Notes under the pieces: generated by a model
Told to the model about the DNA's origin: nothing
Database searches by the model: none
What the model saw: the letters and a program-made list of their open reading frames with translations, nothing else
Assembly: GCA_023897205.1 (NCBI GenBank)
Contig: JAHWDD010000010.1
Coordinates: 124,001-188,000, forward strand
Length of the DNA stretch: 64,000 bases
DNA from: Exophiala sp. HKRS030
Taxonomy: Eukaryota; Ascomycota; Eurotiomycetes; Chaetothyriales; Herpotrichiellaceae
Direction of reading: 5' to 3'
Position numbers and translations under genes: made by a program
Shown: positions 36,088 through 47,244 of the stretch, piece after piece
Layout: each line of letters starts with the position of its first letter
How positions within the stretch are numbered: position 1 is the first letter of the stretch

Positions 36088-38207
36088 ATGTCTACTACTA
36101 CCAACGGCACAGCCCATTCTTGGACATCACTGCCCAAAGCAATGTCCAAGTCAGTCTCCTCTTTGCAAAAGACACTCGACAACGACGCACAATGGCAAGC
36201 GTTCATCGACACCAACGCCATCGTCGAACCTGTCACGATGGGCGTGCAATCGGTAGGGAGCGAAGAAACCATTCTGGTCCACATCACTTCTGGCTCCAAA
36301 ACCACCACATCCACCGGCCCAGGTTCAAAGGCGGATTTTGTTCTTTGTGCCCAACCTCAACAGTGGGAGAAATTCTTTGCCGCCGACCCAAAGGCACCAT
36401 ATACTAGCTTCGTAGGACTTCAGGTACGTGCAGTCCTCCCCCAACCTTCGTCGCCCACTCTCCGTCCCNNNNNNNNNNNNNNNNNNNNNNNNNNNNNNNN
36501 NNNNNNNNNNNNNNNNNNNNNNNNNNNNNNNNNNNNNNNNNNNNNNNNNNNNNNNNNNNNNNNNNNNNTCTTTGTGCCCAACCTCAACAGTGGGAGAAAT
36601 TCTTTGCCGCCGACCCAAAGGCACCATATACTAGCTTCGTAGGACTTCAGGTACGTGCAGTCCTCCCCCAACCTTCGTCGCCCACTCTCCGTCCCCTCCC
36701 CCTGTTGTGGATTGTTACTCACCACAACTTGCACCGAAAAACAGGGCATGAATATCGTCCAGGAAGGCGTCGGTGTGCAAGGAGACAAAGTCAAATTCGC
36801 CCAGTACGGCCATCTAGCGACTCGTCTTCTCGAATTGCTACGCGAAGGTCAACACGGCCCTCTCCCGACCGACCACCAACCCGAGACCGACGAGGACCAC
36901 ATTACCGGTCGGTACATCTACATCGACGCACCTGTCTGGGGTCGGTCAAAGGTATTTTACGAGACGTCCGGCACCGGCCCTCAACAGATTGTGTTCCTGC
37001 ACACGGCCGGAAGTGACAGTCGCCAGTATCATGGTGTGATGAATGATTCACGCATGCGAGAACAGTGTACGATGATTGCATTCGATTTACCGGCTCACGG
37101 AAGAAGTTTTCCTGGTAGTAATCGTATGTTGTGCATTTTCTTCCTCTTCCTCTTGTCCCATCTCCATTTTCCCACTTTCCACTGACGCCACAAAACAGAC
37201 ATCCCAGGAAACCACACCAACAACGAAGAAGCGTACGTCGGTACGATCCGAGAGGTCATCAAGACCCTCAAGCTCGACAAGCCCATCGTCTGCGGAGCGA
37301 GCATGGCGGGACAAGTGTGTGTCGCCGTGGCCATTCGAGCGGAGGAAGTCGGCGCGGGCGGCACCATCCCCCTCCAAGGGTGTGACTACCTCACCATGGA
37401 CCGACAGTTCAACGACAAATCTCCCGTGGTGAATCAAGCCTTGTTCAATCCCGATTGGAGTGAGTATCCAGACCCTAGAGAGAGAGAAAAAAACAAAAAG
37501 AAAACCGACATTCTTCCGCCGTTGACCATGGTGGCTAATGAATCCGACAGTTTACGGCATGATGGCACCAAAAAGTCCTTTGGTAAATAAACAATTGATA
37601 TGGGTACGTACGAGTTGTACTCTCTGACCCATCTTTCTCTGCCCTGATTCGATTCGTATTCCCCTTTTTTTCCCCTCCTCCTTCCCCTTCTCCCTCCTTA
37701 CTACTTTCGGTACTCCATACTCTGCCCTCCCTGCCTTGATGCTTGACAAGTGGGTGATCTGACCCTGAACTTCACGGAACACAGCACATGTACTCCGGTC
37801 AGGCGTACGGCATCTTCCACGGCGACCTGGACTTCTACTTTGGCGGTTTCGACGCCCGTGACCGCGTGGCGCAGATCGACGTCTCCAAGTGTCCCATCTT
37901 CTTCCTCACGGGGGAGTACGACTGGAGCACGACCCCCCGGATGAGCGAAGCCACAGCCCAAAAGATAAAGGGGGCCAATTTCAAGGCCATGAAGGGCTTG
38001 GGTCATTTCCCCGCCACCGAGGATCCGGCCAAGTTTGTAAGTCCTCACTCACTCGTCCTTTAACCCCCCAAACCAGAAACAATCGAGAGTCCTCCGTAAT
38101 CGTGTGAGACAAGTAAGGGCTCGACTAACCACTCCACCTTTCACTTCTCACAGATCCCATACCTCATCGAAGCTATTGAATGGATCCAAAAGACACGACA
38201 ATCTTAG
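36088..38207 (+). CDS. Alpha/beta hydrolase with extra N-terminal domain, split by an assembly gap
   Basis: Six exons encode 444 residues: 36088-36423, 36745-37123, 37199-37459, 37551-37603, 37785-38036, 38154-38207. The gap at 36469-36568 lies inside intron 1. After merging the 127-bp overlap, that intron is 94 nt and the frame is intact. The hydrolase core shows QIVFLHTAGSDSRQYHG, FDLPAHGRS, the nucleophile elbow VCGASMAGQ (Ser in Gly-x-Ser-x-Ala-Gly), the acid region FLTGEYDWSTTPRM and the His in KGLGHFPATEDP. The first ~150 residues (WQAFIDTNAIVEPVTMG, FVLCAQPQQWEKFF, QGDKVKFAQYGHLATRLLEL) resemble an SCP2-like lipid-binding fold; that assignment is inference. Confidence 0.85.
36342..36468 (+). 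repeat. 127-bp exact duplicate, left of gap
   Basis: This segment is identical over all 127 bases to 36569-36695. The two copies flank a run of exactly 100 N. It covers the end of exon 1 and the start of intron 1 of the hydrolase gene. Confidence 0.97.
36469..36568. other. 100-N assembly gap
   Basis: Exactly 100 ambiguous bases, the conventional placeholder for a gap of unknown size. Flanking duplication indicates that no sequence is actually missing. Confidence 0.99.
36569..36695 (+). repeat. 127-bp exact duplicate, right of gap
   Basis: Second copy of the segment at 36342-36468. It is best read as the same genomic locus present at the ends of two contigs. Confidence 0.97.
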
Positions 38208-44906: not shown

Positions 44907-45773
44907 ATGTCGTCCCAGGCTGTACTCCTAAAGGAGTACAAGGCTTTACAAAAAGAAAAATGGGTGCAGATCGATGTAAGTCAAGCCATCACAGGCCAGA
45001 AGACCCCAACGCTCATGTGGAACAGATTGATGAAGACAACATGCTACATTGGAATCTAGCTCTGATGGTCGTCAATCCCGACTCTCTGTATTATGGTGGT
45101 TATTTCAAGGCTCAGATGAACTTTCCTAAGGAATATCCCTACAAGCCTCCGGGTCAGTAAAAAGATCCTCGCGGATCCAGTCGGATTGTACTGACATTGC
45201 GTAGATTTCCGCTTCACGAAGCCACTCTGGCACCCAAACATCTATGTTGACGGTCGCCTTTGCATCTCGATCCTTCATGCACCGGGTGACGACGCCATGT
45301 CTGGTGAGACCGCCGGTGAACGTTGGTCGCCTGCCCAGAGAGTCGAGTCGGTCCTCATTTCCATCTTATCACTTCTCGATGACGCCGAGATTTCTTCCCC
45401 TGCCAATGTCGACGCAAGCGTCATGTTCAGAGACGACAAGGAGGCGTTCAAGGCCAAAGTGACGCAGGACGTCGAGGCTTCAAAAAAGGACATTCCCGAA
45501 GGATTCGTCATGCCAACACATGAGTCGACCAAGCCAGTGATTGACAAGGTGGATGATGACTTCTGGCAAGACAGCGACGTTGAAGATGTCGACTTTGACG
45601 ATTTCGACGATTTCGATGACGATGCCGCCAACGGGAGTGAATCAGATCAAGAATTGAACAATGACTCTGAAGATGAAGAGACGTATGATGAGGACGACGA
45701 GGACACTGAGTATGCCAAGGGGAAACGTCGAGAAGATCGACTAGATTCCGACATGACCGAGCCAGATGTTTGA
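44907..45773 (+). CDS. CDC34/UBC3-type ubiquitin-conjugating enzyme E2
   Basis: Exons 44907-44975, 45026-45152 and 45205-45773 encode 254 residues. The acceptor at 45025 (GTGGAACAG) is chosen because it gives WVQIDIDEDNMLHWNLAL in phase. The UBC fold shows PYKPPDFRF, HPN (residues 75-77) and the active-site Cys85 in GRLCISILH. Directly after it is the acidic-loop insertion GDDAMSGETAGERW that defines the CDC34 class. The C-terminal 60 residues are extremely acidic (DDFDDFDDFDDD and EDEETYDEDDED), as in Cdc34, where this tail binds SCF Cul1-Rbx1. It should extend Lys48 chains for SCF ligases in cell-cycle control. Confidence 0.95.
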
Positions 45774-46972: not shown

Positions 46973-46990
46973 AACAACGAACCGCGACTA

Positions 46991-47003
46991 TAGCTCAGGT
47001 TGG
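46991..47003 (+). promoter_or_regulatory. Pol III A box spanning the exon 1/intron 1 junction
   Basis: TAGCTCAGGTTGG fits the A-box consensus with one extra base. The first eight bases are tRNA positions 8-15 and the last five are the start of intron 1. Unspliced DNA therefore keeps an A box although the true D-loop sequence lies 55 bp further on. Confidence 0.55.
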
Positions 47004-47053
47004 TCCCTCCCACTCCTATTCTGTGCGATAAGGGTTGCTAACTGTGGTTTCAG
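46999..47053 (+). other. tRNA intron 1 (spliceosomal type, D loop, after position 15)
   Basis: 55 nt, donor GTTGGT, branch GCTAAC with its A 12 nt before the TTTCAG acceptor. TCAG precedes both junctions, so the cut could slide without changing the product; the GT-AG frame is chosen. Confidence 0.8.
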
Positions 47054-47061
47054 CTGGGAGA

Positions 47062-47111
47062 GTAAGGCAACCACACCGCAATGTCGCTCAAATACTAATC
47101 CTAGTCCCTAG
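47062..47111 (+). other. tRNA intron 2 (spliceosomal type, D stem, after position 23)
   Basis: 50 nt, donor GTAAGG, branch TACTAAT with its A 13 nt before the CCCTAG acceptor. An earlier TAG at 47102-47104 is too close to the branch and would not give a tRNA. Confidence 0.8.
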
Positions 47112-47116
47112 GCGTC

Positions 47117-47169
47117 GTAAGTTTCTCCCCTCCTTAGGGAAGAGTTCCCCTGCTAATACATACTCTCAG
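47117..47169 (+). other. tRNA intron 3 (spliceosomal type, anticodon stem, after position 28)
   Basis: 53 nt, perfect donor GTAAGT, branch GCTAAT with its A 13 nt before CTCAG. The junction is unambiguous because no sliding is possible, so pairing of the anticodon stem independently fixes GT-AG ends. Confidence 0.85.
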
Positions 47170-47178
47170 AGACTGAAG

Positions 47179-47197
47179 TTAGACTTCGGTTCAGTTT
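47179..47197 (+). other. Canonical tRNA intron at 37/38
   Basis: 19 nt between anticodon-loop positions 37 and 38. It contains ACTTC, able to pair with GAAG of the anticodon loop, as in ordinary fungal tRNA-Phe introns cut by the tRNA splicing endonuclease. Confidence 0.85.
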
Positions 47198-47211
47198 ATC
47201 TGAAGGTCCTG

Positions 47212-47222
47212 TGTTCGATCCA
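47212..47222 (+). promoter_or_regulatory. Pol III B box
   Basis: TGTTCGATCCA matches the B box (T-loop) consensus. It lies about 208 bp after the A box, far beyond the normal 30-60 bp but within distances reported to be tolerated in yeast. Confidence 0.8.
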
Positions 47223-47236
47223 CAGTGGTCGCAGTC

Positions 47237-47244
47237 TTTTTTTT
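47237..47244 (+). terminator. Pol III terminator of the tRNA-Phe gene
   Basis: Eight consecutive T residues start 4 nt after the discriminator base, a strong RNA polymerase III stop signal. Confidence 0.85.

Follow-up and report, generated by a model that had tools for sequence, protein, structure and literature searches.

Spliceosomal-type introns in nuclear tRNA genes of the black yeast Exophiala sp. HKRS030

Introduction

Introns are conventionally divided according to the enzymes that remove them, such that nuclear tRNA introns are cut by the tRNA endonuclease while GT-AG introns are excised by the spliceosome from mRNAs and a few other RNAs. Some fungal U6 snRNA genes carry spliceosomal introns, as in Schizosaccharomyces pombe, and such introns have been gained repeatedly in fungi; ascomycete nuclear rDNA likewise carries spliceosomal introns. 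In archaea and in the red alga Cyanidioschyzon, tRNA introns situated outside the 37/38 position lie in bulge-helix-bulge (BHB) structures. Additionally, Koehrer, Vogel and Domdey reportedly engineered, in 1990, a yeast tRNA precursor with an mRNA intron that was spliced via the mRNA pathway, which makes a spliceosomal route feasible on a Pol III pre-tRNA.

Here, we describe a tRNA-Phe gene with four introns in the window, by which we mean the whole stretch of 64,000 nucleotides analyzed (C10:124001-188000 of a 59.8-Mb, 50-contig assembly), and a genome-wide search for genes of similar construction. The locus resembles fungal U6 in being a predicted Pol III small-RNA gene with short GT-AG introns and a branch motif; however, U6 is itself part of the spliceosome, whereas here tRNAs serve as hosts, at least 23 of their genes each containing one to three such introns. 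The locus is like ascomycete rDNA in that a non-coding RNA gene is interrupted by short introns of mRNA type, but rDNA is transcribed by Pol I into a long RNA, in contrast to a predicted Pol III product of ~75 nt with exons down to 5 nt. Among eukaryotic 37/38 tRNA introns only intron 4 finds its counterpart, while introns 1-3 differ in position (after nt 15, 23 and 28) and in bearing spliceosomal signals. Archaeal multi-BHB tRNAs, and those of Cyanidioschyzon, also have several introns per gene outside 37/38, but GT-AG ends and a branch motif set the present introns apart from archaeal BHB introns. Finally, the engineered yeast precursor was artificial; here the arrangement is natural, occurs in many genes, and is accompanied by no intact tRNA-Phe gene that we could find. 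The intron type is known, and natural nuclear tRNA as a host class is new as far as we are aware: no account of a naturally occurring spliceosomal tRNA intron turned up in the open-licence literature, which leaves most subscription papers and bioRxiv outside and does not establish priority.

Architecture of the tRNA-Phe gene

An earlier note on this DNA had proposed that removal of four segments from 46984-47233 leaves a faultless tRNA-Phe(GAA), and on re-reading of the sequence its coordinates, lengths and motifs all proved to be as stated (Table 1). The joined exons (15 + 8 + 5 + 9 + 36 nt = 73 nt) are called tRNA-Phe(gaa) by ARAGORN, with all stems paired and a single T-G wobble in the acceptor; when intron 4 is kept in the joined sequence, ARAGORN locates a 19-nt intron at 37/38, a position that introns 1-3 do not share. 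In the unspliced window, ARAGORN found no tRNA and Rfam gave no match at its gathering threshold. The branch A lies 12, 13 and 13 nt from the 3' ends of introns 1, 2 and 3 (TGCTAAC, TACTAAT and TGCTAAT), and the 5' splice site of intron 1, GTTGGT, is weak. Self-splicing introns of group I or II have cores of a few hundred nt, compared with 50-55 nt for introns 1-3, and the window yields no Rfam match above the gathering score.

Table 1. Features of the tRNA-Phe gene and of mRNA introns in the same window.
Feature	Positions	Strand	Basis
tRNA-Phe exon 1, nt 1-15	46984..46998	+	joined-sequence call and decomposer
Intron 1, GT-AG, 55 nt, GTTGGT..TGCTAAC..CAG, after nt 15 in D loop, branch A 47041	46999..47053	+	
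tRNA-Phe exon 2, nt 16-23	47054..47061	+	joined-sequence call and decomposer
Intron 2, GT-AG, 50 nt, GTAAGG..TACTAAT..TAG, after nt 23, branch A 47098	47062..47111	+	
tRNA-Phe exon 3, nt 24-28, 5 nt	47112..47116	+	structure and splice signals, not similarity
Intron 3, GT-AG, 53 nt, GTAAGT..TGCTAAT..CAG, after nt 28, branch A 47156	47117..47169	+	
tRNA-Phe exon 4, nt 29-37, with anticodon GAA	47170..47178	+	joined-sequence call and decomposer
Intron 4, ordinary tRNA intron at 37/38, 19 nt, without GT-AG	47179..47197	+	ARAGORN on joined sequence
tRNA-Phe exon 5, nt 38-73	47198..47233	+	ARAGORN on joined sequence and BLAST
A-box-like TAGCTCAGGTTGG, end of exon 1 and first bases of intron 1	46991..47003	+	read from sequence; general A-box consensus
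B box TGTTCGATCCA in T arm, uninterrupted	47212..47222	+	pattern match
Eight-T run, Pol III-type terminator	47237..47244	+	read from sequence
mRNA intron, Cdc34-like E2 gene, 50 nt, GTAAGT..CAG	44976..45025	+	joined protein versus PDB 6nya_C
Second mRNA intron, Cdc34-like E2 gene, 52 nt, GTCAGT..TACTGAC..TAG	45153..45204	+	joined protein versus PDB 6nya_C

The likeness of introns 1-3 to the short introns of protein genes in the window, which the earlier note had also pointed out, is borne out by the 50- and 52-nt introns of the Cdc34-like gene, whose joined protein aligns to PDB 6nya_C across both junctions, albeit with small gaps (1-3 residues) close to the first. Three further mRNA introns of the window were read by eye, and joining the exons around the two introns of an OSCA-like gene gives one open frame to the final stop. 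Together, these five introns span 46-101 nt and carry the branches CTCAT, CTGAC, CTAAT, CTAAC and CTTAC, and are thus more varied than the tRNA introns in size and branch motif. Two U6 genes were found in the genome, one intact (L110) and one (L111; C5:2143871-2144024, minus strand) with a GT-AG intron of the form GTTCGT..ACTAAC..ACAG placed directly after ACAGAGAAG. The start of this U6 intron plus the last exon base reads GGTTCGTGTC, which is B-box-like.

Two observations concern the wider sequence. A conserved protein of this DNA, CLPTM1, shares 94 % identity with Exophiala spinifera and 87 % with E. xenobiotica, in keeping with an Exophiala-like black yeast; its second genome copy is 78 % identical to it across residues 79-628, suggestive of ancient duplication events. 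Positions 36469-36568 of the window consist of 100 N, and the sequence to their left, over at least 120 bases, recurs immediately on their right, an arrangement suggestive of a scaffold gap whose ends are duplicated.

Placement of the three GT-AG introns

Two of the exons are very short, so the junctions are not fixed by structure alone. We therefore consider how often such an arrangement arises by chance, that is, as a tRNA-like string assembled from unrelated sequence. Our decomposer, a script of our own that scores tRNA structure plus loose splice signals, returned the same three introns as its top solution with a score of 53.8, compared with a best score of 41.0 among 400 dinucleotide shuffles of the upstream 336 nt. 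With the gene ends and the 37/38 intron fixed and intron size set at 40-75 nt, sound D and anticodon arms are obtained with 293 three-intron placements, which, with exons of only 8 and 5 nt, would leave some room for coincidence; however, exactly one of the 293 has GT-AG ends on all three introns, and it is the placement that the earlier note had chosen, with CTAAC or CTAAT at 12-13 nt. When the 171-nt middle was shuffled base by base 300 times, some placement was possible in 94 cases and a three-GT-AG placement in none. A chance origin has a negligible probability, and it is refuted by the recurrence of the arrangement in 22 further genes described below.

Spliced alignment to S. cerevisiae tRNA-Phe, made without any splice-site rule, matches 64 of 73 positions and backs intron 4 as well as intron 1, whose slip range covers GT..AG. 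This alignment used a 3-nt piece from elsewhere in place of the 5-nt exon 3, which therefore rests on structure plus splice signals. Compared by BLAST with the whole genome, the 171-nt three-intron stretch matches only itself; this single-copy state leaves an introner-type repeat burst unsupported for introns 1-3. A pattern built from the anticodon exon and the ordinary intron had no matches in viral and prokaryotic contig collections, which are uninformative on fungal relatives. The pattern TAGCTCAGGTNNGT matched at four sites, namely the window gene, L090, L114 and L122, the last of which we read as chance.

A second, likewise split tRNA-Phe gene

Intact tRNA-Phe genes elsewhere had been named in the earlier note as evidence that would speak against a functional split gene. 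None was found in the genome by the Rfam search, by BLAST or with a 23-mer pattern, and these searches brought up just one further tRNA-Phe gene, itself split. BLAST of the joined tRNA against the genome matched only the 3' exon of the window gene; the single-copy reading that this suggested was dropped when the 23-mer pattern, allowing up to 3 mismatches, recovered the second gene (L088). A third match to the 23-mer, L089, was read as no tRNA. The second gene is split after nt 15 and 28, the same sites as in the window gene, and lacks an intron after nt 23; the corresponding introns of the two genes are dissimilar (30/55 and 34/53 identical). The anticodon stem of this second gene, inspected by eye after joining, has a G-G mismatch. 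Its second intron and anticodon were set by hand, the script having chosen otherwise. The genome searches give lower bounds, and a diverged intact tRNA-Phe gene may have escaped them.

Split tRNA genes across the genome

The earlier note described a single gene and thereby understated the case, which is part of a genome-wide pattern. The Rfam tRNA search gave at least 42 genes, with 63 of 1707 first-look candidates scored, and more sites came from T-arm and terminator patterns, of which those judged by eye to have a tRNA-like T stem or acceptor, plus some others, were taken up, making for an incomplete list. Decomposition of 89 + 10 candidates yielded a catalogue of 70 genes at a structure score of at least 50 (64/89 and 6/10). 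By the decomposer, 22 of these 70 carry GT-AG introns, 27 in all; a tRNA-Ile(AAU) gene read by hand (L090) adds three more. When five Rfam genes from outside the catalogue (L003, L008, L029, L033 and L034) for which ARAGORN finds either no intron or a single one of 14-30 nt are included, the total stands at 23 of 76 resolved tRNA genes with 30 GT-AG introns of 46-65 nt, one to three per gene. Genes from the Rfam list rarely carry such introns (2/37 catalogued) compared with the others (20/33), a contrast that would follow if such introns conceal genes from tRNA finders.

ARAGORN called all 23 joined products with the expected isotype: three each for Asp and Arg, two each for Phe, Gly, Pro, Ser, Leu and Ile, and one each for Ala, His, Lys, Asn and Met. 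From the 23 raw, unspliced loci it made no call at 8 and gave a wrong isotype at 14 of the other 15. For seven anticodons, all catalogued genes are GT-AG-split: Phe GAA (2 genes), Asp GTC (3), Arg TCT (2), and Lys TTT, Gly TCC, Leu CAA and Ala AGC (1 each). An ordinary 37/38 intron is present in 65/70 catalogued genes, a share far above that in yeasts. No tRNA-Trp gene in any form was found by the genome Rfam and pattern searches, and the catalogue is therefore incomplete.

Several loci called for individual decisions. L008 was left out of the script because its 81 nt are identical to L007, and a weak scripted GT-AG intron of L075 was removed by hand. ARAGORN labels overruled by script or eye include those of L024, L025, L026, L032 and L033; for example, the intron-bearing L025 is labelled tRNA-Phe(gaa), and the decomposer gives a fully paired tRNA-Ile(AAU). 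Left uncounted were L054 (an Asp 3' part), L076 (an Asn-like 3' half), L091 (an Ala gene containing a GT-AG intron), L113 and four matches at L080. The last (C6:3268800-3271200) are clustered T-arm matches, at least three of which resemble, by eye, tRNA-Glu(UUC) genes with unusually long 37/38 introns; they were not fitted owing to the script's limit of 74 nt for ordinary introns. At C2:904930-905175 (L054, L057), tandem tRNA-Asp copies are present, the second of which contains a GT-AG intron of its own and lacks a recognizable 5' exon. L091 (C3:2621950-2622470) and L096 (C9:88220-88710) each appear, by eye, to lack one base within a homopolymer-like run of a stem that is otherwise good, which may reflect genuine damage or a fault of the assembly.

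Splice signals and the tRNA endonuclease

The 27 scripted introns have A at +3 in 21 cases and G at +5 in 25, end in CAG (15), TAG (9) or AAG (3), and carry the branch motif CTAAC (18), CTAAT (7) or another sequence (2), with the branch A 10-13 nt from the intron end in 25; these consensus counts are partly selected, because the decomposer favors GT-AG introns with a branch motif. When the hand-read tRNA-Ile gene is included, CTAAY lies 10-14 nt before the end in 26/30 introns. A poor motif is found in the Pro CGG gene L051, where CTTTAAC lies 24 nt from the intron end. By comparison, GT..AG ends occur in 0/64 ordinary 37/38 introns, and CTAAY in 4 (the ordinary intron of the second tRNA-Phe gene enters this set as the script's).

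These signals bear on the possibility that a single route, the tRNA splicing endonuclease with its ligase, handles all four introns of the window gene in the manner of archaea and Cyanidioschyzon, a possibility that we regard as highly improbable. The eukaryotic enzyme measures the mature domain to reach 37/38 rather than sites at nt 12-60, and its action would leave the GT-AG ends, the branch motif and the spacing between them unexplained. The enzyme is surely present, given the abundance of 37/38 introns in the catalogue. A BHB of the strict form, with a full 4-bp central helix, is found in 0/27 GT-AG introns but also in only 1/64 ordinary introns; with 63/64 of the latter lacking it too, this comparison is weak and says little on a eukaryotic endonuclease. 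Multi-intron tRNA genes are indeed cut in this way in archaea, according to the Yoshihisa review (PMC4090602).

Paralog pairs, conserved products and the question of dead genes

As a test free of splice rules, each of four genes with an intron was aligned to a near-identical paralog lacking it (Pro CGG, 71/72 matches; Pro AGG, 70/72; Asn, 71/74; Leu TAA, 83/84). In 4/4 pairs the insertion could be placed at GT..AG; this is the sole placement for Pro AGG and Asn and one of three slip positions for Pro CGG and Leu TAA. The Asn alignment (L096) also took a third insertion of 33 nt at nt 69, not GT-AG, owing to a flawed acceptor end. The existence of paralogs so nearly identical apart from an intron suggests that introns were gained or lost recently.

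Three Asp(GTC) genes encode tRNAs that are identical at 72/72 positions, with introns after nt 17, 24 and 24; the two nt-24 introns are identical at 38/57 positions, like shuffled pairs (66 +/- 3 %). The tRNA products thus look to be under selection, and the introns apparently do not. This pattern weighs on another explanation, that the split loci are dead tRNA copies that have accumulated mRNA-type introns while intact genes supply each tRNA. Signs of damage do exist: L054 has no recognizable 5' part, L091 has an odd T stem, L096 has an acceptor mismatch, L088 has its G-G mismatch, and the Arg gene L118 has a 12-nt D loop after joining, although the last may be either misread or damaged. Additionally, a gene with the same anticodon but free of GT-AG introns is present for Pro, Asn, Leu(UAA), Ile, Ser, His, Met, Gly and Arg(UCG). 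However, dead copies would hardly retain identical Asp tRNAs around differing introns, nor would intact suppliers be missing from the catalogue for the seven anticodons listed above, and the window gene is perfect once joined. We consider a population of dead genes to be highly improbable.

Promoter elements and splice sites

Of the 30 GT-AG introns, 12 are located at nt 17 or earlier, within the A box. Among introns placed after nt 15, 4/8 begin with GTT, whereby an A-box-like TRGNNNAGGTTNG is kept, compared with 0/22 elsewhere (p = 0.0026, for a comparison picked post hoc). The hand-read tRNA-Ile gene L090 (C5:53600-54100, minus strand) is interrupted after linear nt 15, 26 and 60; the intron at nt 60 falls in the T loop and splits the B box. 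Roughly 27 nt downstream of this gene begins a B-box hairpin, CTGGGTTCAATTCCCAG, that leads into a T run and is perhaps a replacement promoter element.

A model for expression of the split genes

The best explanation of the locus, to which we assign a probability of about 0.9, is that it is a working nuclear tRNA-Phe(GAA) gene, made by Pol III, with three U2-type spliceosomal introns that would be removed by the spliceosome and one ordinary tRNA intron that would be removed by the endonuclease. Gene structures, splice signals, presence/absence pairs and conserved products are read from the sequence, while transcription, splicing, charging, the spliceosome as agent and the order of steps are what we infer. 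The earlier note had likewise surmised that the spliceosome, or something reusing its signals, processes the transcript, a suggestion with which the intron ends, branch, size, paralog pairs, conserved products and the U6 intron all agree.

As we envision it, Pol III would transcribe the gene from its A and B boxes and terminate at the T run. Within the nucleus, the spliceosome would then excise GT-AG introns 1-3 from the pre-tRNA. Only this step would enable the D and anticodon arms to form, whereupon the spliced RNA would fold and be trimmed. The tRNA endonuclease and ligase would then remove the 19-nt 37/38 intron last.

Perspectives

Because seven anticodons are represented in the catalogue solely by GT-AG-split genes, decoding in this organism would depend on spliceosomal splicing of Pol III transcripts. 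The spliceosome is thus likely to be an essential tRNA-processing machine in this black-yeast lineage, and some of its splice sites likely double as Pol III promoter elements. Published annotations from the genus are, in our reading, consistent with the presence of undetected split genes: an RNA-seq paper on E. dermatitidis reports all tRNAs except Trp, with an intron in 26 (PMC4463862), and the five-genome table of an E. spinifera paper lists 41-45 tRNAs each (PMC7412599).

If the model is correct and the spliceosome must process much of the tRNA set, the division of introns by enzyme would be broken and translation would be tied to the spliceosome. It would also raise questions as to how exons of 5-15 nt are recognized when the Pol III transcript has no cap, how the same bases can serve both a promoter box and a splice site, and how the introns entered tRNA genes. 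On a practical level, the split genes carry a warning that tRNA finders overlook genes of this kind.
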